From a virus: a stretch of 22,834 bases of DNA. Numbering within the stretch: the stretch's first letter is position 1; each line of letters starts with the position of its first letter. A model generated the notes under the pieces. It saw nothing but the letters and a program-made list of their open reading frames with translations. It made no database searches and was not told the origin of the DNA. Location of the stretch: the IMG/VR virus record IMGVR_UViG_3300045999_005064, positions 1 to 22,834 of that record; one strand, written 5' to 3'. This document shows, in pieces, positions 4,215-19,700 of this stretch. The translations under genes and the position numbers were made by a program.

Positions 4215-4387
4215 GCGAAGCCCCCATCCCAATCGAACTAACCTCGCGTGATTTGTTCGCAGTCTTTGCGATGCAAGCAATCCTCTCCGGCCACGAAGGG
4301 CACCACACCAACCGCTGGGAACTGGCGCGTGATGCGTATCGCGTAGCCGATGCCATGTTGGAGATGCGAAACGAGGAACAGCCGTGA
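4211..4387 (+). CDS. Uncharacterised 58-aa phage protein of a widespread type
   Basis: The frame opens at GTG 4211 (GTGA overlap with the preceding TGA) with AGGAG about 8 bases upstream, and ends at TGA 4385-4387, which overlaps the GTG of the glycosyltransferase. The sequence LTSRDLFAVFAMQAILSG at 10-27, then WELARDAYRVADAMLEMR (39-56), fits a small phage protein type I recall with the pattern LTLRDYFAAxAL...AYxxADAMLxxR. It is probably a two-helix protein. The function of the type is unknown. Confidence 0.75.
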   Translation: MSEAPIPIELTSRDLFAVFAMQAILSGHEGHHTNRWELARDAYRVADAMLEMRNEEQP

Positions 4388-5079
4388 GCAAGAACTCCGG
4401 CACCTTCGTCTTCTTTCATGTGGGCGCGGATGTCACGTTCCCGACGAAGATGGTGAAGAGCCTCAAGCAAGTTATGCCCGATGCCGAAGTCATCATGTGC
4501 ACCGACGATGCCACGCCGAAGGTCGAGGGCGTCGATGATTACAAGTACAGCACCGGCAACTACGAGCAGATCATGTACTGGCGCACCCGAGCGTTTGCCG
4601 AAGCGCGACTGACTCGACCGGCCATGTACATCGACACCGATATGTTGTTCGTACTGCCGGTCAACCCTGCTCAAATCCTTGGCGACAAAGAAGTGATCTT
4701 CTGCCGGCGATCGTTCGATCGGGAAGCAACCTTCAATGGAGCCCAAAGGGATGGTGCTTTCAAGAAATATCACGGCATCCCGCTTGGGACTTTGTATCCG
4801 TATCTCGGCTGCGCCACAGTCACGAGCAACTACCACGCATGGAAGTGCATGACGCTGCTGATGGGGTTCATGGATCAGAACTTGCGTTCATGGTACGGCG
4901 ATCAAGAGGCGCTCAAGGTCTACTCGCACATGCTGTACACGCACCTCGTTGGCGAGATGGAAGAGAGCGACTACGCCTGCCTGCCTGAGCGGACTTTGGA
5001 ACTCAGCACCCAAGGCCACGTTCCTCGCATCCTGCACTACAAAGGCCCCGCCCGTAAGGAGGCGTTCCTCCATGCTTAA
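4384..5079 (+). CDS. GT-A-fold glycosyltransferase-like protein
   Basis: 231 residues from GTG 4384, with GAGGAA just upstream. The features match nucleotide-diphospho-sugar transferases: an N-terminal strand (TFVFFHVGAD), EVIMCTDDATP (35-45) for nucleotide binding, YIDTD (82-86) as the metal-binding DxD, YGDQEAL (171-177) as the acceptor/catalytic-region DQ motif, and a late HYKG (218-221) where such enzymes place a metal-binding His. It likely moves a sugar from a nucleotide donor in the cytoplasm of the infected cell. Donor and acceptor are unknown. The C-terminus overlaps the next glycosyltransferase by 8 bp. Confidence 0.8.
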   Translation: MSKNSGTFVFFHVGADVTFPTKMVKSLKQVMPDAEVIMCTDDATPKVEGVDDYKYSTGNYEQIMYWRTRAFAEARLTRPAMYIDTDMLFVLPVNPAQILGDKEVIFCRRSFDREATFNGAQRDGAFKKYHGIPLGTLYPYLGCATVTSNYHAWKCMTLLMGFMDQNLRSWYGDQEALKVYSHMLYTHLVGEMEESDYACLPERTLELSTQGHVPRILHYKGPARKEAFLHA

Positions 5080-5743
5080 AGTGTTTGTCGGCTACGACTC
5101 GCGTGAAGACATCGCGTATCAAGTCTGTAAGAAGTCGTTGGAGTTACACTCCTCAATCCCCCTCGACATTATCCCGATAAAGCAGGACGAGCTGCGTAAG
5201 AATGGTACTTATTGGCGTATTTTCGATCCGCTCTCGTCTACGGAGTTCAGCTTCACGCGGTTTCTGACTCCATACCTCGCGGGGTACTCCGGCTGGGCGG
5301 TCTTTGTAGACTGCGATTTTCTTTTCCGGGGGGACATCGCGGGATTGCTTGACTACGCCGACGGGGCAAAAGCGTGCTTCGTGGTACCGCACGATTACAG
5401 GCCGACCGAATCGGTCAAAATGGACAACAAGGCGCAGCATCAATACCCCCGCAAGAACTGGTCGAGTTTCATGTTCATCAACTGCGAGCATGAACAAGTT
5501 AAGAAGCTCACGCCAGAGGTTGTGAACATCACTACTGGAATGTATCTTCATAGGTTTCAGTGGCTAACCGACGACTTGATCGGCCACTTACCGATTGCGT
5601 ACAACTACCTCGAAGGGTGGTACACCAAGGACGATTGTCCGAATCCGATTGCGGTACACATGACTCGCGGTGGTCCTTGGTTTGAGGACTGGACTCACGT
5701 TGAGTACGGCAAGGAATGGATGGCGGTGGCATCGACATTATGA
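5072..5743 (+). CDS. Phage glycosyltransferase, GT8-like
   Basis: 223 residues. The start is ATG 5072 because AAGGAGG lies just upstream, inside the end of the previous gene; an ATG at 4949 would give an unrelated extension. MLKVFVGYDSREDIAYQVC is the typical opening of a family I know from cyanophages and other environmental phages. DPLSSTEFSFTRFL (52-65), VDCDF (79-83, the DxD metal site), YPRKNWSSFMF (125-135), TGMYLHRFQWL (155-165) and AVHMTRGGPW (194-203, with the late His) follow in order. The length is full for the family. Sugar donor and acceptor are not known; context suggests shared action with the neighbouring enzymes. Confidence 0.85.
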   Translation: MLKVFVGYDSREDIAYQVCKKSLELHSSIPLDIIPIKQDELRKNGTYWRIFDPLSSTEFSFTRFLTPYLAGYSGWAVFVDCDFLFRGDIAGLLDYADGAKACFVVPHDYRPTESVKMDNKAQHQYPRKNWSSFMFINCEHEQVKKLTPEVVNITTGMYLHRFQWLTDDLIGHLPIAYNYLEGWYTKDDCPNPIAVHMTRGGPWFEDWTHVEYGKEWMAVASTL

Positions 5744-7107
5744 GCAATCACACTAAACATCAGCGAGCAATCAAGAAGATTGAGACTGCCTTTCAAGCGG
5801 GCAAGTATGCCGAGGCGCTCGACCTTTGCAACGTAGCCATTGCGCTCAACCCGAAAGACATCGTGGCCTATCGAGCAAAGGCTCGACTGCTTCAGATCCA
5901 GCGTGACTTCGCCGGAGCTGAGAAGTACTACGACGCTGCCGAGAAGCGTGGCGAGCTAACGGCTGACGATCTTGTTAACCGTGGCATCGTCAAAGCTGAG
6001 CAGCAAAAGTATGACGAGGGCATCAAAGACTTTGACCGCGCTCTCAAGCTGAAGCCCGATTACTTGCTGGCCTACATTCAGCGAGGGGCATCGCAATGGG
6101 AGATGCGTCGATGGCCAGAAGCATTAGAGAGCTTCCGCGAAGCCAACAAGCTCGACCCCAACCACGCCAACGCGCAGTGGATTCTGGGACTGCTTCTGCT
6201 TCAGCAGGGCGAGTTCAAAGAAGGCTGGCCGCTGTATGACACTCGCTGGAAGAGCGACCGATTCAAGAGCCGTCCGCTGCTGACGCAAAAGCCCCAATGG
6301 ACGACGGCCTCAGATGCCAAGTCGGTTCTGGTGTGGGGCGAGCAAGGCATCGGTGATCAGGTGATCTACGGATCTTTGCTTCCGGCCCTAAAGCAACGAG
6401 TCGAGAAGGTCACAGCGATGGTTGATCCACGCTTGATCAGCATCTTCAAGCGGTCAATGCCGGACATCGAGTTCATGTCGCACATCGACAAGATCCGATC
6501 GGACTCCTATGACGCGCACATTCCGTTTGCCAGTCTCGGATCTTGCTTCGTCGAATCCGTTGACGACATTGCGAAGCATGCTGCGCGGGAATACCTGAAG
6601 CCAGATCCGGCTCGTGTCAAAGCGATCTGCGACGAGGCTGGCTTTACTGGCAACGATAAGGTCATCGGAGTTTCATGGGTTAGCAGCGCCATCAAGATCG
6701 GACCGCATAAGAGTGTGAACCTTGAGCAGCTACTGCCGATCCTGCGACTACCCGGCTACAAGTTTCTGAACCTGCAATACGGTTCCTCGAAGGCAGCGGT
6801 TGAGAAGTTCAACGAGGCTTACGGCACGAACATCGTTACGACAAGCGTGGATCTGCTGAAGGACATCGAAGGTCTAGCGGCTGCGTGTGCTGCATGCGAC
6901 ATGCTCGTAGCTATCAGTAGCAGCACGGTTCACGTAGCCGGTGCCATCGGAGTCCCGGTGCATCTTATGGATGCCAACAAGCTCTGGTACTGGGGCAACA
7001 AAGACGGCGATCACAGCCTGTGGTATCCGAGCGTCAAGATCTACCCGAGGGACAACATGATTGCGTCTTGGGATAACGTCATCGAAAAAGTCAGGAGCGA
7101 ATTATGA
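5740..7107 (+). CDS. TPR-repeat protein with GT-B-like glycosyltransferase domain
   Basis: 455 residues from ATG 5740 (ATGA overlap); a start 24 bases upstream would break the coupling. Residues 6-157 hold about four tetratricopeptide repeats (for example AFQAGKYAEALDLCNVAIAL and KYDEGIKDFDRALKLKPDY). FKEGWPLYDTRW (159-170) links to a C-terminal domain with VWGEQGIGDQVIYGSLLP (198-215) and the late AISSSTVHVAGAIGVPV segment. Both are features of TPR-glycosyltransferase 9/41-like proteins. The TPR part would dock the acceptor protein and the C-terminal part would transfer sugar. It ends the sugar cassette of the operon. A protein-glycosylation role is inference. Confidence 0.82.
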   Translation: MSNHTKHQRAIKKIETAFQAGKYAEALDLCNVAIALNPKDIVAYRAKARLLQIQRDFAGAEKYYDAAEKRGELTADDLVNRGIVKAEQQKYDEGIKDFDRALKLKPDYLLAYIQRGASQWEMRRWPEALESFREANKLDPNHANAQWILGLLLLQQGEFKEGWPLYDTRWKSDRFKSRPLLTQKPQWTTASDAKSVLVWGEQGIGDQVIYGSLLPALKQRVEKVTAMVDPRLISIFKRSMPDIEFMSHIDKIRSDSYDAHIPFASLGSCFVESVDDIAKHAAREYLKPDPARVKAICDEAGFTGNDKVIGVSWVSSAIKIGPHKSVNLEQLLPILRLPGYKFLNLQYGSSKAAVEKFNEAYGTNIVTTSVDLLKDIEGLAAACAACDMLVAISSSTVHVAGAIGVPVHLMDANKLWYWGNKDGDHSLWYPSVKIYPRDNMIASWDNVIEKVRSEL

Positions 7108-7307
7108 CCGTTGACAACATCTCTCCGGCTGGCGCATGGAAGACGGAGATGGAACGGATGCCGTGGAAACATTCTCAGCAGGTTAAGGTTGATCAGGCGC
7201 TCGCCAGTATTCGAAGCGCCGGCCTTCAGCTTGAGGCCAACATCTTGGCTTTAGAGATTACTACTTTGAAACGTGAACTGGAGTTACTTAGAAATGCCCG
7301 AGGTTAA
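7104..7307 (+). CDS. Uncharacterised 67-aa coiled-coil protein
   Basis: ATGA overlap with the TPR gene. The N-terminus is short and polar. From about residue 22 to the end there is one long helix with hydrophobic heptad spacing (VDQALASIRSAGLQLEANIL, then ALEITTLKRELELLRN), so a dimeric coiled coil is likely. No domain is recognised. The next gene starts inside its last 14 bases in another frame. Confidence 0.72.
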   Translation: MTVDNISPAGAWKTEMERMPWKHSQQVKVDQALASIRSAGLQLEANILALEITTLKRELELLRNARG

Positions 7308-7488
7308 AAATGCAGTCAGAGAATACTTGGCGAGTATCGGAAGCCGAGGTGGAAGCGCTGGTTCAGGAGATCAGAAGCGAAGATCTAAAGAACATTATCA
7401 GCGAATGGCAAAGCTCAGCCACGCCAAGCGAAAGGCCAAGAAGAAAGGAGCCAAGCGTGAGCGACCCGGTAAATCCGAATCACTATAA
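7294..7488 (+). CDS. Small highly basic phage protein
   Basis: 64 residues from ATG 7294; an in-frame ATG at 7273 would deepen the overlap with the previous gene. It begins MPEVKNAVREYLASIGSRGG, followed by RRSKEHYQRMAKLSHAKRKAKK (in two pieces). The Gly-rich turn then KRRSxEHYxRM matches a small phage protein type I have often seen, which lacks a known function. It is very Lys/Arg-rich, so nucleic-acid binding is plausible. Its end overlaps the DUF3310 gene by 32 bp. Confidence 0.72.
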   Translation: MPEVKNAVREYLASIGSRGGSAGSGDQKRRSKEHYQRMAKLSHAKRKAKKKGAKRERPGKSESL

Positions 7489-7675
7489 GAGCGGATCAGT
7501 TGAATGCATCGACGCCTTGCGGGCTGCGCTCACTCCCGAGGAGTTCCGTGGCTACTGCAAGGGCAGCGCGATGGCCTACCTCTGGCGGCTAGGGCAGAAG
7601 GATGCCCCCGAGCAGGAGGCTAAGAAGGCCGCTTGGTACATCTCCTGGCTTGCAGGTAAAGACCCGAGGAGCTAA
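7457..7675 (+). CDS. DUF3310 family protein
   Basis: 72 residues. The start is GTG 7457, chosen because AAAGGAG (7444-7450) lies six bases upstream and the protein then begins right at the domain. The frame is open further upstream to 7310, but that part shadows the previous gene. The N-terminal VNPNHYKSGSVECIDAL (5-21), then FRGYCKGSAMAYLWRLGQKD (33-52) and AAWYISWL, are the DUF3310 hallmarks (Asn-His-Tyr, then helix with Gly-AMxYLWRxG). The family is common in phages and its role is unproven. It is the last gene before a strong terminator. Confidence 0.88.
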   Translation: MSDPVNPNHYKSGSVECIDALRAALTPEEFRGYCKGSAMAYLWRLGQKDAPEQEAKKAAWYISWLAGKDPRS

Positions 7676-7678
7676 GAT

Positions 7679-7704
7679 CTCTCTGTGCTATCTCCTGTAG
7701 AGAG
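7679..7704 (+). other. Short hairpin preceding the terminator
   Basis: CTCTCT (7679-7684) and AGAGAG (7699-7704) form a perfect 6-bp inverted repeat around a 14-base loop, just after the DUF3310 stop and four bases before the terminator stem. It could help the terminator or protect the 3' end of the mRNA. Chance is possible because the arm is only six bases. Confidence 0.35.
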
Positions 7705-7707
7705 TTG

Positions 7708-7747
7708 GCCCCGGTGTCGAAGCTTAGCTCCGCCGGGGCATTTTTTT
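7708..7747 (+). terminator. Rho-independent terminator of the rightward operon
   Basis: A GC-rich stem GCCCCGG (7708-7714) / CCGGGGC (7733-7739), with an 18-base loop, is followed by A and a run of seven T (7741-7747). The signal is directional: on the other strand the stem is not followed by a T-run. It ends the 753-7675 polycistron and lies 17 bp before the converging end of the primase-polymerase gene. Confidence 0.85.
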
Positions 7748-7763
7748 ACCAGCACTTCCAGTC

Positions 7764-10010
7764 CTACTTCCTGACTCGGTACACCTTGCGATCGCGCCCG
7801 GCTCCGCCTGCCTTCACTGTCTCCTCGATGATGTCGCCGGCTTCCATGAGCGTCTGGAGAATCTCGTTTCGATCGCGAGCCTTCATCCCCTGACAGTACT
7901 TGGCCAACTGGGTGGTGCTGAGTCCATCCTCGCCGGCCTTGCGGATGATGTTCAGGATCTTCTTGTGCGAGGCTTCGATCTCGTTCTCGGCAACCTCCTT
8001 GGTGATCAGGTCAGCCGTATAGTTGAACGACCATCGAGCCAGATCGTTAGCCATCTTGAAGATCTCGAACGTCACGATCGGGCTGCTCGGGTCACGAGCA
8101 ATGGCCTCGATCATCGCAAGCTTGATGGTGATCTCGGTGTAGCGCACCCAGAGGGCATCGTCGTTTCGCGAATGCTGAAGCTGCCAGTCGCGCACCTTGC
8201 TGTACTCGGCGAAGGCGGTGTCTTCCCACTCGACTACGATCGGTGCGATCGACGACGAAGCCAGAGTCTGGATGTTCGTTAGGTTGCCGACGTTGGTCGG
8301 TGCCACCTCATAGGATCTGCGGATGTCATCGATCAGATCCTCGGGCACATCCATCTTCTCGGGTATCTGCGCGTTCGGATAATCCTCGAAGGGCGGGATC
8401 AGCAGAATGCGCGAAAGCGTACCGTTGTCCACCATGTCGTGGTTCAGCGCAGGGATCAGCGTCCTCGGTGTTGTCGTGCCGAAGAAGTTGAAGTTGGGCT
8501 GATTGATATCGAGACGCTGCCGCTCGCGTGAGTCAGCATATTCCTGGCCGTGATAGACGCCGCTGCTACTCGAGTAGACTTCGAGCAAAGTCTTGATTAC
8601 ATCGCGCTGGTGCCCTGCCGCATTCTTTGCAGTCAGGCTCTGGAGGTACAGACCCATCTCGTCGAGATGACTGATCCTTGATGGATAGTCGAACAGCGTT
8701 CTCAGGATGGCAACACCGGAACTGAAGCGATCGCCGCAGATCAGTTGCCCGAGGCCAGAGGCGATCATCAATTCCTTGACGCGCTGACGGCTGTGATCCT
8801 TACCGGCACCGGGCTTGGCAACGGCGATCACGAAGATGTTGCACCGAGTGTGTAGATGCGCCATGGCATAGCGTCTACCGAAGAGCGCACCGAACATGCA
8901 GATGGTATTCATCAGCGCGAAGGTCGGCTGCGGCTGCTGTGCTGTGGAGTTGATCCATCGAGTGACCCGGCCAACGAGCGACGGACTGTTGAACCACTCC
9001 ATCGGAAAATTGTTTCGGGTGCTTTTGGGTATTTTCTTGGGTGGCTCAAGGTTAGTAAGGTCTACCTTCACAGCCTTGATCGGATTCAGATCCAGATGCG
9101 GCGGAGGTGCCCACCCGTTTTGCTGTGCAAAAAAGTACAGCGATCCTGCGCCTATCTTGGTGGGTGGTGACTTGCTGTAGTGATCCCATCGCTGCCGGGT
9201 TTCGAGTTGGTTGTACTTACCCGAGGCTTGCGACCACTGGTCAAAGATGTGGTAACCCTTGGCTTCGGTGGCGCAGTAGATTGCCATGCCAATTTTGTTC
9301 CAGTCGTCCCATGACAGATCCGGGTTCGGCACAAAGCGCAGGGAGTCCTCGACCGCAGCCATGGTACCCACGAGTCCATCATAGGATGTCTTGGCATCCT
9401 TGTTCGGGATCACGGTGGTGACGTTGCCCCCAAGCTTTCGCTGCCGCAGGTTCGGCGGGATCGTCTTATAGGCTTCCTCGCAAGCAGCGAGTACTTGCTC
9501 TCGGGTCACCGTGATCAGGCTGTCTACGGGCGTCTCATGCGGCGCAGAGAACGGCCACTCGTATGGTCTGTTGGTCTCTGGGTGCACGGCATAGGAGACG
9601 AACTGTTGCCCCTGCCCGAGCACCTCGATCGGGTGCATGGAGATCTTGGTGAACGGTTCATCAGTGCGGTACAGATACAGCGCCTTCGGTGCCTTGCCGA
9701 TACGCATCAGCTCGGCTTCGCCCAAATGCTTTTGGAAAACCTTGCCCACCTCGACGGCGACCTCGGCTTCCAAGATATCGATATCGATGGCGATGACTTC
9801 GCCGCACAAGATACCGATGCCGCATCCCGGCCACTTAGACCAGAGATCGATGTGAACTTGCTGGACGTTGACTTCGGTCCATCGAGCCAACTCACCCCAG
9901 CTCTTGCCGTCCCAACGTCCTGGACGTTTGGTTCCCGGCATAATCGGTATGATGCGATAGCCCCCATCCATGAGCTTGGCACCATACTGTTGCATGTAGT
10001 TGTCAGACAT
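7764..10010 (-). CDS. Primase-polymerase fused to DUF3987-like helicase domain
   Basis: 748 residues. The N-terminal archaeo-eukaryotic primase-polymerase domain (about 8-185) opens with RIIPIMPGTKRP; it has IDID with metal-binding D76 and D78, and the SYAVH motif ending in H143. A PriCT-like segment follows (about 219-282: SLRFVPNPDLSWDDWNKIG). The second half looks like a DUF3987/superfamily-3-type ATPase: Walker A KPGAGKD (399-405) and Walker B-like ISHLDE (446-451). Residues 681-748 form a winged-helix-like end. Such fusions start replication in phages and plasmids by making primers and unwinding DNA. It overlaps RusA by 8 bp. No separate DNA polymerase is in the window, so it might also extend primers (inference). 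Confidence 0.9.
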   Translation of the reverse strand: MSDNYMQQYGAKLMDGGYRIIPIMPGTKRPGRWDGKSWGELARWTEVNVQQVHIDLWSKWPGCGIGILCGEVIAIDIDILEAEVAVEVGKVFQKHLGEAELMRIGKAPKALYLYRTDEPFTKISMHPIEVLGQGQQFVSYAVHPETNRPYEWPFSAPHETPVDSLITVTREQVLAACEEAYKTIPPNLRQRKLGGNVTTVIPNKDAKTSYDGLVGTMAAVEDSLRFVPNPDLSWDDWNKIGMAIYCATEAKGYHIFDQWSQASGKYNQLETRQRWDHYSKSPPTKIGAGSLYFFAQQNGWAPPPHLDLNPIKAVKVDLTNLEPPKKIPKSTRNNFPMEWFNSPSLVGRVTRWINSTAQQPQPTFALMNTICMFGALFGRRYAMAHLHTRCNIFVIAVAKPGAGKDHSRQRVKELMIASGLGQLICGDRFSSGVAILRTLFDYPSRISHLDEMGLYLQSLTAKNAAGHQRDVIKTLLEVYSSSSGVYHGQEYADSRERQRLDINQPNFNFFGTTTPRTLIPALNHDMVDNGTLSRILLIPPFEDYPNAQIPEKMDVPEDLIDDIRRSYEVAPTNVGNLTNIQTLASSSIAPIVVEWEDTAFAEYSKVRDWQLQHSRNDDALWVRYTEITIKLAMIEAIARDPSSPIVTFEIFKMANDLARWSFNYTADLITKEVAENEIEASHKKILNIIRKAGEDGLSTTQLAKYCQGMKARDRNEILQTLMEAGDIIEETVKAGGAGRDRKVYRVRK

Positions 10011-10377
10011 TTTCGACTTGAACCTCGACTCGTTCCTCGCCGTACTGCTTCGAGGCCACGAGTTGTGCTACCACTGCGTCGTCGCTAAAGACAACGCCAT
10101 TCAGCCCATCCATGATCGCCTTGACGATGTTGTCCAAGTCAGGACGAGAGATGTGCCACCCCGTTTTTTTCTTGTGTGCAAAGTATGCCGTGACCGTAAC
10201 TTTGACTGGCCCTTCAAACATACTTTTGCCGAGCATAGCGATTTGCGCCAATGCCTTGATGTTCATCTCATAGATCTCGGTTTCGCGTGGCGTATAGGTC
10301 ACAACCTTTCTTCCACGCTTTGCGAATCTAGGACGACCCTTTGGCATCGGCTTGCCATGAATCACGATGTCAATCAT
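10003..10377 (-). CDS. rusA: RusA family Holliday-junction resolvase
   Basis: 124 residues, normal for RusA. The N-terminus has GKPMPKGRPR (8-17), and the core RPDLDN (78-83) supplies D80 and D82. D90 in IMDGLNGVVFSDD and the D99/D100 pair follow, then K110. RusA enzymes are homodimeric, metal-dependent and cut four-way junctions. The stop overlaps the primase-polymerase start and the start overlaps the regulator's stop (TAATG), so the three are cotranscribed leftward. Likely job: resolve recombination or replication intermediates before packaging. Confidence 0.93.
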   Translation of the reverse strand: MIDIVIHGKPMPKGRPRFAKRGRKVVTYTPRETEIYEMNIKALAQIAMLGKSMFEGPVKVTVTAYFAHKKKTGWHISRPDLDNIVKAIMDGLNGVVFSDDAVVAQLVASKQYGEERVEVQVENV

Positions 10378-10730
10378 TACAACCCCGCTAACTTATAGAT
10401 ACGATCGACGATGTCATCCGGTGTCTCTGCCTTCTTGGTCAGGAACCGGCTCAATGTGTTGCGACTGATCCGAAGTTTCTTTGCCGCTGCCGAAAGCGTG
10501 AACCCTTTCCGGTACAACGAGACATAGATCTTCTCGCGATCGGTCATCTCCAATTCATAGCGCAGACTTACTTGCCCCTTGGTTCTGCGCTCTATAATCT
10601 TCAGCCACTTGGGAGACGGCATCCTGGAGCCGGACGACCACCGGGTGACAGCGGCACGGGTACACCCGCACATGGCAGCAAATTGCTCATGTGTCAAGTG
10701 ATTTCGTTCTAGCCATTCATTTAACGACAT
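10377..10730 (-). CDS. Transcription regulator with two helix-turn-helix segments
   Basis: 117 residues. The start is ATG 10730, because AAGGAGG sits 4 bases upstream on this strand; the frame stays open to 10754 but lacks a ribosome site there. Residues 3-46 look like a Cro/CI-type helix-turn-helix (LTHEQFAAMCGCTRAAVTRW). Residues 76-99 form a second one (FTLSAAAKKLRISRNTLSRF). It is the first gene of the leftward RusA/primase-polymerase unit and faces the divergent region 10731-10839. That is the usual position for an autoregulating repressor or switch protein (inference). It has no peptidase or dimer domain like that of lambda CI. Confidence 0.85.
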   Translation of the reverse strand: MSLNEWLERNHLTHEQFAAMCGCTRAAVTRWSSGSRMPSPKWLKIIERRTKGQVSLRYELEMTDREKIYVSLYRKGFTLSAAAKKLRISRNTLSRFLTKKAETPDDIVDRIYKLAGL

Positions 10731-10839
10731 TGATCCTCCTTCGGATGGTGACATCTTGCCACCACTTGCATCCTGTCACAAGGGGTGTTACCTTTCTTCC
10801 GTCGGCATCCCCGACAAACACGCAAAACGGAGAACCTGT
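10731..10839. promoter_or_regulatory. Divergent regulatory region with repeated half-sites
   Basis: This 109-bp gap separates the leftward regulator from the rightward recombination unit. It holds three related half-sites: GTGACA (10748-10753), its exact inverse TGTCAC (10774-10779), and TGTTAC (10786-10791), whose inverse GTAACA differs at one base. The two left-facing copies are 12 bp apart, about one helix turn. These are candidate operators for the adjacent regulator. I see no convincing -35/-10 pair for either direction; TTGCAT (10766-10771) followed 17 bases later by TACCTT is weak. Confidence 0.45.
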
Positions 10840-11223
10840 ATGAGAACTGAAATCGAAATCGCTGATGAACTTTTCCAAGCAAAGCAAGATGAGCGCAAAG
10901 CAAACGAGCATCGAGTGGCGCTAGAAGAAGAGCTGATTACTATCCTCGGTAAGAGAGAGGAAGGTGCTAAGACGCACCAAGTCGGTGACTACAAGATCAC
11001 CATCACGGGCAAACTCAAGCGCAAGATTGATTGGGACATGTTCGACAGCGCCATCGCTGCTCGCATTCCCGAGAGCTTGCATCCCGTGAAACTCAAGCGC
11101 GAGCTTGATGAGACTGGCGTTAAGTACCTCGCCAATAACGAGCCGCAACTGTACAAAGTTCTGGCTTCAGCTCTGACTATTGAACCCGCCAAGACAGACG
11201 TAAAAATCGTCCAAGGAGTTTGA
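10840..11223 (+). CDS. Uncharacterised protein of the recombination module
   Basis: 127 residues from ATG 10840 with GGAG about 7 bases upstream; the open frame extends to 10756 through the regulatory gap and is not used. The N-terminal 45 residues are a charged helix (AKQDERKANEHRVALEEELI). A compact domain follows, with DYKITITGKLKRKIDWDMFD, then LHPVKLKRELDETGVKYL and NEPQLYKVLASALT (separate pieces). Proteins of this pattern (strand, then VK...LDxxGxK.L...NEPxLYK) occur next to Sak4 and DUF669 genes in phages from memory. The function is unknown. It is first in the rightward unit. Confidence 0.78.
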   Translation: MRTEIEIADELFQAKQDERKANEHRVALEEELITILGKREEGAKTHQVGDYKITITGKLKRKIDWDMFDSAIAARIPESLHPVKLKRELDETGVKYLANNEPQLYKVLASALTIEPAKTDVKIVQGV

Positions 11224-11224
11224 G

Positions 11225-11989
11225 ATGGCTATATCACTAAGTAGTTTGAGAAAGACTGGTGTCGCCCGTCCGCCGCGCATTGTGGTGTACGGAACCCACG
11301 GCATCGGCAAATCCACCTTTGCTGCTAACGCACCGGCTCCGGTGTTCATCCAGACTGAAGAAGGACTCGATGCCATCAACGTCGATGCCTTTCCGCTGTG
11401 CACCTCTTACGAGGAAATGGTGGACGCGATCGGCGCACTGGCTAGCGAAGATCATGAGTTCGCTACCGTTGTCGTGGACAGCGCCGACTGGGCTGAGCAA
11501 CTGATCCACAAGCGTGTCGCGCAGGACAACAACGTGGCGACGATTGATGCCATCGGCTACGGCCGTGGCTACAAGGCGGCTGCGGATTACTGGCGTCAGT
11601 TGCTTGATGGTCTCGACCATCTGCGTAACGAGAAGAACATGCAGGTAATCCTGCTCGCGCACACGCAGGTCAAACGATTCGACGACCCGCTCGCTGACCC
11701 GTATGACCGTTACCAACTCGACCTGCATCACGGCAGCGCAAGTCTGGTGAGCGAGTGGTGCGACATCCTGATGTTTGCGAATCAGCAGTACAGCACCGTC
11801 AAGTCTGATGTTGGCTTTAACCAGAAGGTCACTCGCGCAGTCGGCAACGGTAACCGTGTGCTGTACACGCAAGAGCGTCCAGGCTGGCAGGCCAAGTCAC
11901 GTTGGTCGTTGCCGGATTCGCTGCCGCTGGACTATGCAAAGTTTTCCGAGGCGCTTGCCTCATCGATGAACCAAGTAACTGGAGAGTAA
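11225..11989 (+). CDS. Sak4-like RecA-fold ATPase
   Basis: 254 residues from an ATG with AAGGAG upstream. The Walker A motif is GTHGIGKST (23-31). Walker B is TVVVDS (81-86, D85), and LLAHTQ (143-148) holds the sensor-like His. The fold corresponds to a minimal RecA-like core, as in phage Sak4 single-strand annealing/recombination proteins and the related AAA_24 group. These bind ssDNA and promote pairing, working with phage SSBs. The next gene encodes the DUF669 protein that commonly accompanies them. It could also be a helicase-loader type ATPase; annealing is the better fit by context. Confidence 0.85.
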   Translation: MAISLSSLRKTGVARPPRIVVYGTHGIGKSTFAANAPAPVFIQTEEGLDAINVDAFPLCTSYEEMVDAIGALASEDHEFATVVVDSADWAEQLIHKRVAQDNNVATIDAIGYGRGYKAAADYWRQLLDGLDHLRNEKNMQVILLAHTQVKRFDDPLADPYDRYQLDLHHGSASLVSEWCDILMFANQQYSTVKSDVGFNQKVTRAVGNGNRVLYTQERPGWQAKSRWSLPDSLPLDYAKFSEALASSMNQVTGE

Positions 11990-11994
11990 AACAA

Positions 11995-12477
11995 ATGGCT
12001 AAGTTAAACCTGAACCCCACCGAGTTCCAAAACCTTGAGCCGATGGGTGACAACAGCATCCTTCCTGCTGGCGAGTACGTCATGCAGATCGTGCAGTCGG
12101 ATATCCGCGAGACGAAGGCGGGCACCGGCCACTACTTGTGGTTGGAGTTCGACATCATCAAGGGCAACGTGCCGGCTGGCCGTAAGTTCTGGGATCGTCT
12201 GAACATCCTGAACCCCAACGAGACGACTCGTAAGATTGCCAACCAGCAATTGCTTTCGATCTCTCGTGCGGTAGGCATGGATCTGCCGCCGGATGATTCC
12301 GAGCGTCTGCACTTCAAGCCCATCAAGGTTGTGATTCGTCACAAGGAGAACAAGCAGGGAACTTTGGAAGCGCGTCCGGCATACCTCTCGGTATCCGATG
12401 CTACGCCAACGGCTGCCCCTGCTCCTGCTGCTGCCAAGCCGGCGGCTGCGAAGCCTTGGGAAAAGCACACTAAGTAA
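11995..12477 (+). CDS. DUF669 family protein, likely ssDNA-binding
   Basis: 160 residues from ATG 11995 with GGAG upstream; the open frame reaches back to 11902 inside the ATPase gene without support. The core has ILPAGEYVMQIVQSDIRETK (20-39), then GHYLWLEFDIIKG and GRKFWDRLNI with NPNETTRKIANQQL, all typical of DUF669. The family is thought to serve as a phage single-strand-binding protein next to Sak4-type ATPases. The last 30 residues are Ala/Pro-rich (APAPAAAKPAAAKP) and probably a flexible tail ending KHTK; unlike many SSBs the end is basic, not acidic. It is followed by the nested hairpin at 12484-12541. Confidence 0.87.
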   Translation: MAKLNLNPTEFQNLEPMGDNSILPAGEYVMQIVQSDIRETKAGTGHYLWLEFDIIKGNVPAGRKFWDRLNILNPNETTRKIANQQLLSISRAVGMDLPPDDSERLHFKPIKVVIRHKENKQGTLEARPAYLSVSDATPTAAPAPAAAKPAAAKPWEKHTK

Positions 12478-12483
12478 ACAGGC

Positions 12484-12541
12484 GGCGCGGCACTCGGAGG
12501 CGTGATACCCGCCTAACCCCGATACAACCGAGTGTCGCGCC
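12484..12541 (+). other. Long nested hairpin between the DUF669 and nuclease genes
   Basis: The arms GGCGCGGCACTCGG (12484-12497) and CCGAGTGTCGCGCC (12528-12541) pair over 14 bp with a single G-U wobble. In the 30-base loop AGGCG (12498-12502) pairs with CGCCT (12510-12514) around TGATACC, so a second stem stacks directly on the first. It fills the 80-bp gap between the DUF669 gene (ends 12477) and the nuclease gene (12558). There is no T-run, so it is a poor terminator. A structured RNA, an mRNA-processing site, an attenuator or a DNA-level site are possible. Confidence 0.75.
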
Positions 12542-12557
12542 TCCCTTTGGGGGAACC

Positions 12558-13511
12558 ATGGCCAAGATCCCGCAGACACAAGACCCGACGCTATCAGCCA
12601 TCGATCTGATGATGGAGCGCGGGCAAGAAAGCCGTAGCCGAAACTATCTCGGCGCGTCATCCATTGGCGAGTCATGCGAGCGCAAGCTCTGGCTCGGATT
12701 CCGTTGGGTCAAGAAAGGTTTCATTGAAGCCGCTGGCCTGCGCAGGATTAATGATGGGCACAGGGGCGAGGATGTCGTTGCTGACATGATCCGTCTCGTC
12801 CCCGGCATCGAGCTGTCAACCGAGAAAGAACCCGGTGTGCAGCACTCCTTTGAGGATCTGGGTGGACACTTCCGTGGCAACTGCGACGGGCTGCTGACTG
12901 GCTTGATCCAGTCGCCCGAGAAGCTCCATGTGTGGGAGTGCAAGGTTGTCAATGAAACCAAGTTCAAGAAGTTGGCATCGCTTAAGATTTCAAAGGGTGA
13001 AGACGAAGCCCTGAAGAACTGGGACTACGTGTACTACGCGCAGGCTCAGGTCTACATGCATTACTTCGGCGCGACCCGGCACTACATGACCGTCGCCTCT
13101 CCTGGCGTTCGCGATCTGGTGAGTGCCCGGACAAAGTATGTACAGGCCGAAGCCGAGAAGTTTATCGAGAAGGCCAAGCGAATCATCTTTTCATCGAGGC
13201 CGCCGAGCAAGATCACCGAAGATCCCGCATGGCACGAGTGCAAGTTCTGCACCTTCCATAACATGTGCCACGATCAAGAATTCCCGCATCGCAAGTCTTG
13301 CCGCACCTGTCTGCACAGCACACCTGTGAAGGAAGGCGGATGGAAGTGCGAGTTCCACAACAAGGACTTAGACCAAGAGGCGCAGCTTGCCGGCTGTGAC
13401 CAGCACTTGTTCATCCCCGATCTGATCCCCGGCGAGCAGATAAACTCAGGTCCTGACTGGGTCGAGTACAAGATGGGGGATGGATCAGTATGGATCGACA
13501 CTTCGAAATAA
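12558..13511 (+). CDS. Cas4/RecB-like PD-(D/E)XK nuclease with Cys clusters
   Basis: 317 residues. SSIGESCERKLW puts C40 near the N-terminus, and H68 precedes the core. GNCDGLL (108-113) gives D110, and VWECKV (125-130) gives the E127-x-K129 pair. YYAQAQVYMH (159-168) is the QxxxY-type motif. C228, C231 and C237 follow (CKFCTFHNMC); with C40 they would hold an iron-sulfur cluster as in Cas4/AddB-type exonucleases. A further Cys set (C248, C251, C264, C280) could bind zinc. The protein probably resects DNA ends to feed the Sak4/DUF669 pair. It is not linked to CRISPR here. GGGGGA near the ATG can act as the ribosome site, although it lies beside a CCC/GGG hairpin. Confidence 0.85.
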   Translation: MAKIPQTQDPTLSAIDLMMERGQESRSRNYLGASSIGESCERKLWLGFRWVKKGFIEAAGLRRINDGHRGEDVVADMIRLVPGIELSTEKEPGVQHSFEDLGGHFRGNCDGLLTGLIQSPEKLHVWECKVVNETKFKKLASLKISKGEDEALKNWDYVYYAQAQVYMHYFGATRHYMTVASPGVRDLVSARTKYVQAEAEKFIEKAKRIIFSSRPPSKITEDPAWHECKFCTFHNMCHDQEFPHRKSCRTCLHSTPVKEGGWKCEFHNKDLDQEAQLAGCDQHLFIPDLIPGEQINSGPDWVEYKMGDGSVWIDTSK

Positions 13512-13693
13512 CCGAGGACGATGAAGCCGACGAGTTACTACTGACCGGCGAAGACATCGAAACGATTCTGCGAGCACTCGACTCTTACGGCTACGCAATG
13601 GTGATGTCTCAGTCGATCGGTGAACTGGAAAAAATTAAACGCGCCGCACAAGCACTCATGGCACAACTACCCAGAACGGAATTTGACTCATGA
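13490..13693 (+). CDS. Uncharacterised acidic 67-aa protein
   Basis: The ATG lies 22 bp before the nuclease stop in another frame, and the TGA overlaps the helicase ATG (ATGA at 13690-13693). It is strongly acidic in the first third (FEITEDDEADELLLTGEDIE), then forms helices with ILRALDSYGYAMVM and LEKIKRAAQALMAQL. The size, charge and position between a nuclease and a helicase suggest a helper or inhibitor, but no family is recognised. Confidence 0.75.
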   Translation: MDRHFEITEDDEADELLLTGEDIETILRALDSYGYAMVMSQSIGELEKIKRAAQALMAQLPRTEFDS

Positions 13694-15369
13694 TCACACT
13701 CAGGCCATATCAATCAGAATCAATCGACGCCACCCTGCGCTTCTTTGCAGAGGACACCGGCAACCCGCTCATCGTGCTACCGACTGGCACCGGCAAGAGC
13801 GTGGTCATTGCGGAGTTCTGTCGGCAGGTTCTGGGGCAGTGGCCTGATACGAAGATCCTAGTGGTCACCCATGTTCGAGAGTTGATCAAGCAGAACTACG
13901 ACGAACTCAAAGGGCTGTGGCCAGAGGCCCCGGCGGGTATTAACTCGGCTGGCCTGAAGCGGCGCGAGTACGAACCCTCGATCGTATTCTGTGGGATACA
14001 GTCGGTGCACAAGAAAGCATCCCGATTCATCAAGGTCGATCTGGTTCTGGTTGATGAGGCGCATCTGATTCCTCGCAAGACGAATACGATGTACCAAAAG
14101 TTTCTGAAGAACCTTAAACTCATGAACCCAGATATGCGCGTGATTGGGTTGACCGCCACGCCGTATCGGCTCGACAGCGGCTTACTCCATCAGGGCAAGG
14201 ATGCCCTCTTCAGCGCGGTATCGTATGAAGCAGATCTCAAAGACATGGTCTCGCAAGGCTACCTCACCAAGCTGGTATCCAAGCAACCCAAGACGCGACT
14301 GGACGTTAGCGGCGTCGCGACCAGAGGCGGCGAGTTTATCCAAGGTGACTTGGAAAGAGCGGTGGACAAGGATGATGTCAATCGTGCAGCCGTCCGAGAA
14401 ATCATCGAGTACGGAAAAGACCGAAAGTCTTGGCTAATCTTTTGCGCGGGCGTTAGCCACGCTCAGCACGTAGCCGAACTGATCCGCGCTGCCGGCATAT
14501 CCTGCGAGACGATCTTTGGGGACACCGCCAGCGAAGACCGCGATCGGATCGTGCGCGACTTCAAGGCCGGCCAGATCCAATGCCTTGCCTCGATGGGCGT
14601 ACTGACCACCGGCTTCAATGCCCCTGCCGTAGACATGATCGCCATGCTGCGACCGACTCAGTCAACCGGCTTGTATATACAGATCATGGGACGGGGTATG
14701 CGCAACTCTCCCGGCAAGACGGAGTGCCTGGTGCTGGACTTCGCCGGCAACGTGGCTCGGCATGGCCCGGTCGATCGGGTCAATCCCAAGAAACCTCGTA
14801 AGAGCGACGGAGAAGGCGAGGCCCCGGTCAAGACCTGCCCCAAATGCGACAGCATCGTCTTTGCGGCCCTCAAGGAGTGCCCCGACTGTGGCTATGTCTG
14901 GCCGGCTAGAGAGGTTCAGATCGAGCGTACAGCGACGACACTGGCGGTCATGTCTATCGAGGCTCCGGCCATCTGGCGCAAGGTGAATGCGGTGTCGTAT
15001 CGACGCCACAAGAAACCCGACAAGCCGGACTCGATGCGGGTGGACTACCGATGTGGGCTGAGTCAGATCAGCGAGTGGGTCTGCTTCGACCACAAGGGCT
15101 TTGCCAAGGACAAGGCTCGACGCTGGTGGCAGCGCAGACTCGTCGCCCCAGACGCCATCCCCGACAGCACCGAGCAGGCTCTCGCTTGGTCCGGCCGGTT
15201 AGCTAAGCCAATTGAAATACAGGTTCGCCAGAATGGTAAGTACACAGAAATTGTGGACGTTCGGTTTGTGTCCGATGTGCAAACGGGAGGCGCGGGGATT
15301 CCTGTATCTGCCGCCACCGGGGGTGCTTCGACGCAAGGCCCGCTTCTGCTCAATGCGATGTATGGATGA
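13690..15369 (+). CDS. Superfamily 2 DEAD/DEAH-type helicase with zinc ribbon
   Basis: 559 residues. Motifs in order: Q-like RPYQ (5-8), motif I PTGTGKS (31-37), Ia VVTHVRELIKQ, II DEAH (122-125), III TAT (155-157), V-region TTGFNAPAVD (306-315) and VI QIMGRGMR (331-338). A zinc ribbon follows with C383, C386, C397 and C400. Residues 415-505 are a phage-type C-terminal region ending around KYTEIVDVRF. The final 33 residues (527-559, low-complexity Gly/Ala/Ser) lie over the start of the zinc-ribbon gene in another frame. Homologues are common in phages and act as ATP-dependent DNA helicases or translocases in replication or recombination. Exact role unknown. Confidence 0.92.
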   Translation: MITLRPYQSESIDATLRFFAEDTGNPLIVLPTGTGKSVVIAEFCRQVLGQWPDTKILVVTHVRELIKQNYDELKGLWPEAPAGINSAGLKRREYEPSIVFCGIQSVHKKASRFIKVDLVLVDEAHLIPRKTNTMYQKFLKNLKLMNPDMRVIGLTATPYRLDSGLLHQGKDALFSAVSYEADLKDMVSQGYLTKLVSKQPKTRLDVSGVATRGGEFIQGDLERAVDKDDVNRAAVREIIEYGKDRKSWLIFCAGVSHAQHVAELIRAAGISCETIFGDTASEDRDRIVRDFKAGQIQCLASMGVLTTGFNAPAVDMIAMLRPTQSTGLYIQIMGRGMRNSPGKTECLVLDFAGNVARHGPVDRVNPKKPRKSDGEGEAPVKTCPKCDSIVFAALKECPDCGYVWPAREVQIERTATTLAVMSIEAPAIWRKVNAVSYRRHKKPDKPDSMRVDYRCGLSQISEWVCFDHKGFAKDKARRWWQRRLVAPDAIPDSTEQALAWSGRLAKPIEIQVRQNGKYTEIVDVRFVSDVQTGGAGIPVSAATGGASTQGPLLLNAMYG

Positions 15370-15577
15370 CTATATGATCGACAAATCACCGAACGAACAA
15401 ATTGCCATGAACGAAGCCGCTGCTGCGGCCGGCCACTTCATCGAGGCATCGGGGGTTTACAACTTCCTCGAGTTCACACCTGGTCAGTTTGACCAGTTCA
15501 TCGAGGCGATCGTAACCGCCTACGTCGAGTCGCTTCAGGATCAGAAGATCGAGACAGACGGTGTAAGATTCCCCTAG
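15233..15577 (+). CDS. Zinc-ribbon protein, DUF6511-like, overprinting the helicase end
   Basis: 114 residues if started at ATG 15233; TTG 15212 in the same frame is an alternative, and neither has a strong ribosome site. C13-x-x-C16 (CPMC) and C39/C43 (FCSMRC) make a clear zinc-binding pair around the loop FLYLPPPGVLRRKARF. Helices follow (NEQIAMNEAAAAAGHF; then FDQFIEAIVTAYVESLQD). This matches a phage type I recall as DUF6511 (YLPPPxVxRRxAxFCSxxCMD). It shares 137 bases with the helicase gene in another frame. Its TAG (15575-15577) lies within the palindrome CTAG that also gives the converging phosphoesterase its stop. Confidence 0.78.
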   Translation: MVSTQKLWTFGLCPMCKREARGFLYLPPPGVLRRKARFCSMRCMDDYMIDKSPNEQIAMNEAAAAAGHFIEASGVYNFLEFTPGQFDQFIEAIVTAYVESLQDQKIETDGVRFP

Positions 15578-16569
15578 ACCGCCTTACCACGGAACCATGC
15601 CTTGCCATGCTCGACGACGCACAGTTCCGGCTGAAGCATCTTACCGCCCACAAAGGTAATGACGGCAAACCCCGATGCCCAATTGACCGGACTGGCCTCA
15701 GTGTAGTTGAACTGCGGACCATATGGCTCCGCCAGAGTCCCGGTGTCTACGCCATAACGCCGACCTCGATAGTCCGCCCACGGCGTAACCTGAAGCTTGT
15801 GCATGTGCCCGTGAACATACGAGACACCAGCCTTAAGGGTTGAGTTGTAGGCAGAGTGAACCCCGCCGGCTATGGGGCGGTGCCGGATGCAGAGCCAGTC
15901 GTCCTGCTCACGGTTCAGGTGGACCGCCCAGCCCGCTTCCCAGCGCGGCAGATAGTCCAGCAGAGTCATGCCGGTCATCTCCTCAAACTCGCCCACACGG
16001 CCTGAGAGGTAGTTCTCGAAGCGGGAATCGTGGTTACCGATCGTTCGCAGGAGCTTGGCTCCCTTGGCCGCACGTTCGATCTCAGCGCAGCGATCCTGCA
16101 CGGTATGGATCTCGTCCTTCAACTCCGGCTGCTTTTCCCACATGATGCGGGCGTGCCGGGAGATTCGAGCGCCGTCCAAGATGTCGCCATTCAGAATGAC
16201 CATCTTCGGACTAAGTTGCTTAGCTAACTTGCAAAAGGCTTCGTGAGCCTTGGTGACGATACCGGGCCAGTAGTGGGCATCCGATGCCACCATGAGAACG
16301 CCGTCATGCAGCGTCTCGTCGATCTGGTTTTTGTAGTTACGGGAACGCTTCTCGGCTAACTGGTTCAGGCTCTCGCCAACCTTCTTGCGCCAGCTAGTTC
16401 CCTTGCCGTTGTCTTTGGATTCCAGAACGATACCGTATCGAAGTTCAATCGTTCTTCGCCTCATCCGTGCGGCACGGATGTTCATCTGGAAGTATTCTGA
16501 TACCGCTTTGGCTCCGCCTAGTTTTTTCCACGCTGTAATGAATTCCTCGTCAGTCGATAGCTGAGGCAC
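15574..16569 (-). CDS. Calcineurin-like metallophosphoesterase with N-terminal helix-turn-helix
   Basis: 331 residues from GTG 16569, with AAAGGTG just upstream on this strand. The metal-binding motifs are complete: SDAHYW (D97, H99), NGDILDG (D129), GNHD (N179-H180-D181), IRH (H230) and VHGHMH (H253, H255, H257). The first 60 residues are separate: GGAKAVSEYFQMNIRAARMR looks like a helix-turn-helix followed by a basic linker. Such phage proteins are annotated as phosphoesterases; the substrate may be a nucleotide, DNA end or phosphoprotein. The N-terminal part suggests binding to DNA (inference). It is the last gene of the leftward unit and converges with the 15233 gene. Confidence 0.88.
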   Translation of the reverse strand: MPQLSTDEEFITAWKKLGGAKAVSEYFQMNIRAARMRRRTIELRYGIVLESKDNGKGTSWRKKVGESLNQLAEKRSRNYKNQIDETLHDGVLMVASDAHYWPGIVTKAHEAFCKLAKQLSPKMVILNGDILDGARISRHARIMWEKQPELKDEIHTVQDRCAEIERAAKGAKLLRTIGNHDSRFENYLSGRVGEFEEMTGMTLLDYLPRWEAGWAVHLNREQDDWLCIRHRPIAGGVHSAYNSTLKAGVSYVHGHMHKLQVTPWADYRGRRYGVDTGTLAEPYGPQFNYTEASPVNWASGFAVITFVGGKMLQPELCVVEHGKAWFRGKAV

Positions 16570-16777
16570 GATTCACCTTTATTCCTAGTTTCTTGCGGCG
16601 AGCATTGGTCTTTTTATCGTCTCGGGAGGCCCGCCATTCTAGGTGCCCATCAACCAGACGATATTCTTCCTTGTGGACCAACGCGCAATCACAGCACTCC
16701 GAGTGCGTGTACCCACGGACCCTGTACCACTTGCCGTCTTCGATCTGGACGGGAACGTACTTGTCCTTCTTTTTCAT
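16550..16777 (-). CDS. Small Cys-containing phage protein
   Basis: 75 residues, basic. The centre has SECCDCALVHKEEYRLVDG (26-44; C28, C29, C31 and H35), a zinc-like Cys/His set, followed by HLEWRASRDDKKTNARRKK. Proteins with a CCDCxLxHxxEYR core are frequent in phages and their function is unknown. It overlaps the phosphoesterase start by 20 bp and begins 10 bp after the stop of the 1260-aa gene. Its ribosome site is weak. Confidence 0.78.
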   Translation of the reverse strand: MKKKDKYVPVQIEDGKWYRVRGYTHSECCDCALVHKEEYRLVDGHLEWRASRDDKKTNARRKKLGIKVNRASAID

Positions 16778-16787
16778 GGGCTTGACT

Positions 16788-19700
16788 CTACCTGTTTGCG
16801 TACCGCTTTAGCAAGAGCTGTTCTTCTGGGCTGTATGAAGATTTCTCTTCTTCTTCCTGCATAATTCTCAACAGCTCACCGCCGTCCGTCTCGCGCATAA
16901 CTTGGCGAGCCTTTTGCTCGCTTCCGTAACGCTTAATTAACGCTCTGAGAATTCGAGCGTTGTACTTGGTGTAGTCTTCTCCAGAGTCTGCTAAACCGCC
17001 TTGATTTTTTCGAATCACTCCGCCATGCGCTCTTTGATTTTGAGCCAAAAGGCGGAACAGTTCCTTGCGCTTTTCTAGCGGAGTCGCGTTAAAGGTTTGT
17101 GCATTTAACAAGAACTCTGGATTAAGACCGCCGCCCATTTCGGGGCTTCGGGTAGACGACATCAGATCCTGAAGACGCTTCCTTTGGTCAGGGGTCAGCT
17201 CCTCAAAAGAGTAACCTTGAGGGGCAGCGGCAGGGGCGGGCGGAGATTCTGCCGGGGCTTCTTGGCCTTCCTTAGAACTGCCGCCGTAGTACTTATCCAT
17301 GATGTACTTCTCAACATCGGCCTCGGTCTGCCCAGGCTTTGTCTTGACGTTGTAAGGCTTGCCATCTGGGCCAACAAAACGGACAACGTTTTTCTCAGCC
17401 TTAGACTCTTCAGCCTTTGGCTCTTCCGCTGCCGGCTCCTTAGCCTCTTCAGCCTTCGGGCCTTTCTCGCGCTTCTCATACTTGTTGAAGATATTTTCTA
17501 AACGAGTATTAAAAGTGTCCGAGTGCCCCTTCAGTTCATCATCGTCCATCAAGCCTTGTTCATGCTTACGAAGCTTTGACTGATAGTCTTTAGCCGCCGC
17601 TTCGATGTCGCGATCCATCGAGAACAGTTGCTGCATGGTCAGCTTATCGAGGTCGATCGGTGTGACCTTGATGCCAAAGGTTTGCAACGCAGCCTGAGCA
17701 ACAGACAGCTTGGGCTGAGTCATCGTCTCTGCGCCTGCCGCTGCCTTCTCAAACTTCTCCGTTGCCGGCATACCGGGGATACCCGGCAGATTGGGCAGCA
17801 AGGAAGTAATGAACCGGCTAGCCTTAATGGCAGCGTTGTTGGCGCGGACTTCGCCTTCGGTCGCTCCTACATTTAGCCCAGGCAAGTCCTGCCCAGTAAA
17901 CGGATCGCGGCCTTCTTGGAAGATTGTGATGGCATCAAATATCGGGCCACCCGGCTGCAAGAACTGCGGCAAGAACTCAACTCGCCGGCCGGCGGCTTCG
18001 GTCGTAGCAAAGATGTCGCCACCCGGAATGAACCGCTGCACATCGAGGTACATTGATGGCGGGACTTCGCCCTTCTCGTCCGGCTTCGGCTCTTCAGACG
18101 GAAGCTTGATCATGGTCGGCGGCGCACCGGGTATACCAAACAAGGTTCCCTTCTGGCGCTCCGGCATCATGCGCCGCTCGGCCTCGATGTCACGGCCCGG
18201 AGATTCAGACTCGCCGTACTCATTGACTGCATATCCAAGCGCCGCCCACTTGGCATACTTCCACGGCCGCAGGGCAGCGGACTCCGCCAGCAGCGGAATA
18301 GCACGATAGCTGTACGCAATGAATGGATGCGTCGTGTTGCGCATACCTTGGATCAATGGCGCATTGATCTCGTAATCAATCAACCACTTCTTGGCTTCCT
18401 TAGCCGCATCCTCTGGCGACATACCAGCCTTGAGTCGATCAACGAAAATACCGAAGCGGAAGATACTGTCTTCGCCCTGATAAGCATCGATGATTTTTCC
18501 GCCGGTTTTTTGCCAGCCTGCATTTGCAATCTTTAGCGCAGAGTCAACAACGTTATCTGCGGGACGAGACTTCTCAATCGCATCAAGAACCTGCTTTCCT
18601 TCGCGACCAAGTTCTTGCGCCGAGAATCCGGCGTCGAATACACCAAGTTTTTGCGCCTGATTGTACAGATCGCTCTTTTCGCCCTTGCGAAGTTCGTTCG
18701 CAGCCGATGCCAACGATGACCAGTTTGACCCAGAAAGGTCATAGATCATTACGTTCGACACGACGTTGTTCATGTGAACGGCTGGGTTTAGCGCAGTCTT
18801 TCCGGTCTTCCATGCCGTGAGCGCATCGCGATAAGTTCTAAACAGCGGATTGCGATTCAGGCCGCGAGTAAACTCAAGTCCCTGCAAGTCCTTGGCAACC
18901 TCCGGCGAGACGTACTTGCCGGCTAAGTTGCCATAGCGAGTCACATTGGTCTTGGGGATTTTGTCAGTTGAGATCTGAACCCAGCCCTCGACCGGCTCGT
19001 CGCTAACGTATTGCTTCATCTTAGAGACATCGTCGTACATCTTGTATGTAGCAATGTCGTTGGTCATAAGCTGACCAGTGCGAGCGATCGCATACGCAGC
19101 GTCGTCGATCTCACCCTTGGCTCGTCGCTCTTCTGGCGTCAACTGCCGGCGAACCTTAATCTTGCCGCCCTTGGCATCGCCAAACTTTTCCCACCCGTCG
19201 GCTTCATACTTGGACAGATTCTTTGGCGAGATCTCGACGATAACGCCACGCGGCTTCAGACTGGAGCCGATGACTCGAAGATTATTCGCAGCCCTACTGA
19301 TCAGCCCCTCAGGCTTCAGCTTGCTGGTGTACTCGCGACGAAGATATGTGGCGGCATTCTTCTCGAATGTTTCTGGGTTAAGCAGGCCAACGTCCACCAT
19401 CTTCTGGCCGTACTTGGTGATTGTCTCTCGCGCCTTCTCGCTAAGGCCCGCCAAGTTCTCAACTGGTACAGCCTCGCCTTGCATCATGTAGTACATGGTG
19501 CGGCGCTCATCGTCCGACAGTTTGGCAACGTCACGAGTTAGATCCAAGAAGTCAGACGACATTTGATTCTTGAAGATCTTGGCGTTTTGCTTAACTTCCA
19601 AATAGTCAGCAGGCAGACCGTAGTTGTCTATGGTCATGCGAGAGAACCAGTTGGCAATGTTCTCATCGTTGCCGGCGGGGATCTTGCCGGCTATGTACTT

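Follow-up and report, generated by a model that had tools for sequence, protein, structure and literature searches.

A conserved intercistronic hairpin behind the single-stranded DNA-binding protein gene of uncultured phages

We analysed a 22,834-base virus record from IMG/VR (IMGVR_UViG_3300045999_005064; the window is this whole stretch) and found, behind the gene for its single-stranded DNA-binding protein (SSB), a hairpin which on the evidence of covariation is a conserved structured RNA. Its pairing is conserved in the sense-strand RNA, and it occurs as a single copy at a fixed position behind the SSB stop codon, independently of the nuclease gene. It matches no Rfam family and was not found described in the literature searched, and we regard it as a previously undescribed, covariation-supported RNA element of uncultured phages, of a kind that is already known, the intercistronic regulatory hairpin. 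With moderate confidence, we propose that this hairpin of the SSB 3' end derives from a terminator which lost its U-tract, and that it acts in the mRNA to set SSB above the nuclease. The portion of the transcript encoding the Sak4-like ATPase and SSB would then outlast or outnumber the portion encoding the nuclease and helicase.

The recombination unit and its one gap

The rightward unit of the window consists, in order, of a DUF7173 gene, a Sak4-like ATPase gene, the DUF669 SSB gene, a Cas4-domain exonuclease gene (the nuclease), a 67-aa ORF and a helicase gene. The domain matches (Sak4-like AAA_24, DUF669 SSB, Cas4-type exonuclease and helicase; Table 1) agreed with the gene names of the original prediction. 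Its description of the SSB-nuclease gap as the only sizeable one in the unit was also accurate. This gap is 80 nt long (12478-12557) in a tightly packed unit, where the Sak4 and SSB genes are 5 nt apart (11990-11994), the preceding junction is 1 nt, and the two junctions after the gap overlap. No promoter-like site was found in the window between 7000 and 17000. A run of ORFs resembling, by eye, methyltransferase, glycosyltransferase and TPR-containing proteins lies at 3172-7107.

Folding of 12470-12570 gave a minimum free energy of -44.6 kcal/mol, compared with -31.7 +/- 3.4 in 200 dinucleotide shuffles (z -3.8), and 0/200 shuffles were as stable. The fold reproduced the hairpin as it had been described, with a 14-pair stem containing one G-U pair (P1), a 30-nt loop and a second 5-bp stem (P2) stacked on the first. 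A short CCC/GGG hairpin (P3), expected at about 12543-12554, was located at 12542-12554.

Table 1. Features of the SSB-nuclease junction and of neighbouring genes in the window
Feature	Position	Strand	Basis
Sak4-like ssDNA annealing ATPase gene	11225..11989	+	phrog_124 2e-42; PF13479 (AAA_24) 5.5e-52
DUF669 single-stranded DNA-binding protein gene	11995..12477, TAA 12475-12477	+	PF05037 E 8.5e-16; phrog_6015 SSB 5.6e-25
P1 stem, 5' arm GGCGCGGCACTCGG	12484-12497	+	fold; pairing kept in relatives with compensatory changes
P2, inner 5-bp hairpin (AGGCG/CGCCT) stacked on P1	12498-12514; arms 12498-12502/12510-12514	+	folds
Loop, unpaired C-rich part AACCCCGATACAA	12515-12527	+	CCCC in loop of 44/47 relatives
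P1 stem, 3' arm CCGAGTGTCGCGCC	12528-12541	+	fold and conservation
P3, short pyrimidine-tract/SD hairpin directly 3' of P1	12542-12554	+	fold; swap tests weak
Shine-Dalgarno-like (SD) G-rich run GGGGGA	12549-12554	+	sequence
Cas4-domain exonuclease (nuclease) gene	12558..13511	+	phrog_1990 E 7.1e-74
Superfamily II helicase gene, further along the recombination unit	13690..15369	+	phrog_16 1.2e-104

Conserved pairing and attachment to the SSB gene

To collect relatives, IMG/VR was searched with the nuclease and SSB sequences and with an alignment of each protein. Using tblastn, 118 loci with both genes were obtained; three on the minus strand were left unused, and the remainder represented 54 distinct SSB-nuclease junctions. 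The hairpin was present in all 46 distinct junctions in which the nuclease was at least 60% identical (46/46, corresponding to 107 locus entries, some of which share a contig). These 46 junctions, together with locus L060, which was recovered by SSB alone, made up an alignment (A2) of 47 sequences. Across the 15 pairs of the stem, 97.0% of 704 cells were paired, compared with 89.4% in column shuffles and 37-58% in slid structures. Compensatory changes in related phages, which the original prediction had named as a check, were found at 9/15 pairs (61 cells changed on both sides). When mapped on a nuclease tree of the 46, 25 both-side changes kept pairing, as against 3-11 in slid controls, and 20 changes led to or from an unpaired state, as against 54-101; these counts are approximate because they come from a single parsimony reconstruction. 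Pairing was therefore kept rather than lost in relatives, which supports the original claim of a structured RNA. Model R1 detected one locus per record in 32/32 records searched whole, with reverse-strand matches falling at the same places.

Particular letters were conserved as well as pairing. The P1 core, CGGCA/UGUCG, was nearly invariant in A2, and a G-U pair within it was fixed in 43/47 sequences. The P1 loop had a median length of 32 nt in relatives, with CCCC in 44/47 and a median composition of 42% C and 16% G. One locus, L020, kept the stem with a loop of 5 nt and no C-run. The inner hairpin P2 was present in part of the relatives only.

In 47/47 sequences, P1 started 3-8 nt past the stop codon of SSB. 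Eight loci in which a gene has been inserted were examined. In each, P1 had kept its place next to SSB, and the nuclease came after the inserted gene without P1; in three of these eight, the stop of the inserted ORF overlapped the nuclease start. In L060 the next gene after the hairpin differed from the nuclease. Since P1 stays with SSB despite insertions, and the next gene in L060 is a different one, the element belongs to the SSB 3' end. In L110, L118, L123 and L124, a 73-aa ORF (MKTI[IV]HVNQH...) separates the hairpin/SD cassette from the nuclease; in L110 this ORF would reach 88 aa if read from a start further upstream. A gene starting MK.. stands between the hairpin and the nuclease in L060 (MKRF, after 3079), L081, L087, L100 and L103, and its protein in L060 may resemble PAPS-reductase-like proteins.

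Function of the hairpin and competing explanations

The original prediction had as its main idea a structured leader that could control translation of the nuclease; in the form considered here, P3 would hide the SD. In most phages the pyrimidine tract after P1 can indeed pair with the following SD, and P3 had a negative folding energy in 34/35 distinct tails with a G-rich run before the start. Its own halves also paired better than swapped ones, although 58/2000 and 47/5000 permutations were as good, which is weak. The mini-hairpin by the start codon recurred where an SD was present, but its covariation was weak, and P3 was dropped as the main element on account of these swap statistics. Pairing of the C-run in the loop with the G-run of the SD, as a pseudoknot, was likewise dropped, because the C-run is still present in phages that lack the G-run. 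A nuclease leader is also difficult to reconcile with the L006-type and L012/L028 phages, which keep P1 without an SD and without P3. Because the hairpin stays at the SSB 3' end on gene insertion, it is not a nuclease-specific leader, and a canonical terminator stands at this place in many of the distant phages; we regard the leader as very unlikely. A long, single-copy inverted repeat might also be expected to serve as a site in the DNA, for replication origin, packaging or recombination, or to give rise to a small RNA that acts in trans; this explanation appears less likely still. C-rich loops could in principle pair in trans with SD sequences, which counts for a small RNA. However, the 15 pairs contained 119 G-U as against 3 A-C cells (76 as against 3 when the fixed wobble pair was excluded), and this asymmetry indicates that pairing is selected in the sense-strand RNA, rather than in DNA or an antisense RNA. 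The DNA-level site that had been offered as an alternative is disfavoured by these counts, and both forms of this explanation also have against them that the position is tied to the end of the SSB gene and that no promoter-like site was detected in 7000-17000.

A more substantial alternative, which we consider possible though clearly the lesser prospect, is that the hairpin still works as an inefficient intrinsic or factor-assisted terminator, where some polymerases stop after P1 and readthrough feeds the nuclease and helicase. P1 is a stable, G+C-rich hairpin, and it occupies the place at which canonical terminators stand behind SSB in distant relatives and most cultured phages, including those annotated in PaMx42. 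The tail has at least 3 T in its first 8 positions in 47/47 sequences (best in L028, 6/8), so that some weak termination may occur. Stem letters are also shared with terminators of the host family: 4/200 Burkholderiaceae genomes gave weak matches, which resemble ordinary terminators and have identical or similar stem letters, and terminators in this genome sample share the letters GCGCGGCA. Against this explanation, the window stem is followed by TCCC rather than a T-run (tail TCCCTTTG), the loop is 30 nt long, and no promoter-like site from which the nuclease could be transcribed if termination were complete was found in 7000-17000. On the T-tail index, a standard index from the literature, the window tail TCCCTTTGGGGGAAC scored 2.64, below the window's 95th percentile of 3.05; the clade median was 2.58, compared with 3.1-6.0 in 12 outgroup terminators selected by eye. 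The statement that this is not a plain terminator, and the missing T-run on which it relied, were therefore borne out. A terminator scan of the window did not list P1, which the scan's loop limit of 8 would exclude in any case. In a MAG labelled Ottowia (L250, 1518-1551), the same stem letters form an ordinary terminator between a tRNA-like gene and thrS. The Burkholderiaceae terminators, together with those of the outgroups, suggest that the hairpin may have descended from a terminator; it differs from intrinsic terminators and intra-operon attenuators in its lack of a U-tract directly after the stem, its loop of about 30 nt and its conserved letters.

These letters form the basis of a further explanation, in which a protein, for example the phage SSB or a host RNA-binding factor, would bind the conserved stem core and the C-rich loop and so make the junction a regulated switch with feedback on SSB or the nuclease. 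The (nearly) invariant stem core with its fixed G-U, and the C-rich loops, are what such a site would predict, and L020, with its stem kept around a short loop without a C-run, is not. There is a precedent in T4 gp32, which binds its own mRNA (PMC3014915). Like the present element, the T4 site is a structured part of the mRNA adjoining a phage SSB gene. It is a pseudoknot with an A+U-rich stretch upstream of its gene, in the 5' leader, whereas the present element is a plain hairpin 3' of SSB. We judge a protein site to be rather improbable, and give the same low probability to the bolder form of the idea, a new class of phage mRNA switch. In it, an infection-made protein, possibly SSB, would recognise the CGGCA/UGUCG core and the C-rich loop that follow its own coding region, and so set exonuclease/helicase expression. 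If true, such reading would couple end resection to the amount of SSB available.

We favour a dosage hairpin at the SSB 3' end, and processing or stability of the mRNA, mentioned as an alternative in the original prediction, is among the best readings of its probable function. SSB is needed in stoichiometric amounts and the nuclease in low amounts, these levels being assumed here, and the promoter-proximal mRNA would thus be favoured over the nuclease/helicase part. The element would have arisen as a mid-operon intrinsic terminator whose U-tract was lost in this clade. In its present form, the hairpin would let most polymerases pass, perhaps attenuating transcription slightly, and would block 3'-to-5' exonucleases after downstream cleavage, as in malE-malF and puf; the adjacent P3 would further damp translation of whatever gene comes next. 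The outcome would be abundant SSB and scarce DNA-degrading exonuclease. Consistent with a decay barrier of the malE/puf type, a stable hairpin with conserved pairing lies just after the upstream gene inside the operon in 47/47 sequences. The malE-malF and puf barriers (PMC5927463) share with the present element a stable hairpin without a U-tract behind a promoter-proximal gene needed in larger amount, with downstream genes needed in smaller amount. The same paper reports a stable hairpin at the end of 26/34 upstream segments that are stabilised within E. coli operons. The present element differs in its conserved stem sequence and C-rich loop, and decay protection is here predicted from sequence. 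A barrier that slowed decay by purely mechanical means could have any sequence, and the conservation of the core and the loop C-run therefore counts against a dosage hairpin of this type; the conserved letters argue for some role beyond that of a generic stem. If the SSB:nuclease ratio is set by the hairpin, phage recombination would have a simple dosage control built into its own transcript.

Known families and more distant phages

No matches to Rfam release 15 were found at gathering thresholds for the window or 11 relatives, and a relaxed search of 12400-12640 gave none up to E 5; the element thus shares covariation-supported structure with Rfam families and matches none of them. GenBank phages gave no match by DNA, and in the literature searched, which covered few subscription journals, no paper was found on the element or on hairpins that follow the SSB gene of phages of this kind. 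Structured elements in bacterial 3' UTRs are described as highly unusual in a 2010 structured-RNA survey (PMC2864571). A pattern scan of IMG/VR for the stem returned at least 120 stretches, comprising SSB-linked copies and scattered others; among the 79 of these on which R1 was run, scores above 50 were obtained at three loci only, all SSB-linked. On inspection by eye, the pattern matches L139, L142, L154, L156 and L203 had no gene context in common, and they were treated as chance or terminators. A near-identical short GCGCGGCACC..GTGTCGCGC hairpin was seen in A+T-rich stretches of L135, L149, L165, L177 and L209, on IMG/VR contigs that appeared non-phage-like by eye.

Among distant IMG/VR relatives, canonical hairpin and T-run terminators stand at this place in L026, L027, L029, L030, L035-L038 and L062-L064, and further relatives have hairpins without a T-run or no gap; this tabulation is rough, as L301, a copy of the in-group L020, was counted as outgroup and start codons were guessed. 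Many of the distant relatives have no hairpin and only 0-4 nt between the SSB stop and the nuclease start, which indicates that the arrangement is not essential. We also sampled cultured phages with a DUF669 SSB, taking 25 annotated regions of which 23 were analysed; this sample is not random, as it was picked by hand from listed hits, some of them related. In 22/23, the gap behind SSB measured 25 nt or more and held a hairpin, the exception being Mcat26 with a 1-nt gap. GottfriedDienst (Bas21) and JenK1, which can be grown on E. coli K-12, have a hairpin and T-run at this place. At least 5 T in 8 followed the stem in 15/22, a lenient count because it was made from inner stem pairs too. The median fold z of these SSB gaps was -2.57, compared with -0.47 for 29 control gaps in those regions (p 5e-6); the weakest case, S0112, was no better than shuffles (z -0.5). 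In the PaMx42 record, terminators were already annotated behind SSB. In recombination units of the Sak4/DUF669/Cas4 type, a mid-unit hairpin or terminator would thus usually stand between SSB and exonuclease. The present finding adds a covariation-supported RNA element from uncultured phages, and the junction pattern is testable in laboratory phages.

Other layouts were observed behind SSB. A two-tier hairpin whose outer stem ends near the SD of the next gene was seen in L257, L272, L276, L277, L298, L320 and the cultured CRP-902 (L338); in this group, inner stem sequences vary between lineages and the layout is kept. Rhizobium phage RHEph04 (L354, 1946-2058) has two successive hairpins behind its DUF669 gene, with stems that have no sequence similarity to those of the window and long C-rich loops that resemble the window's own.
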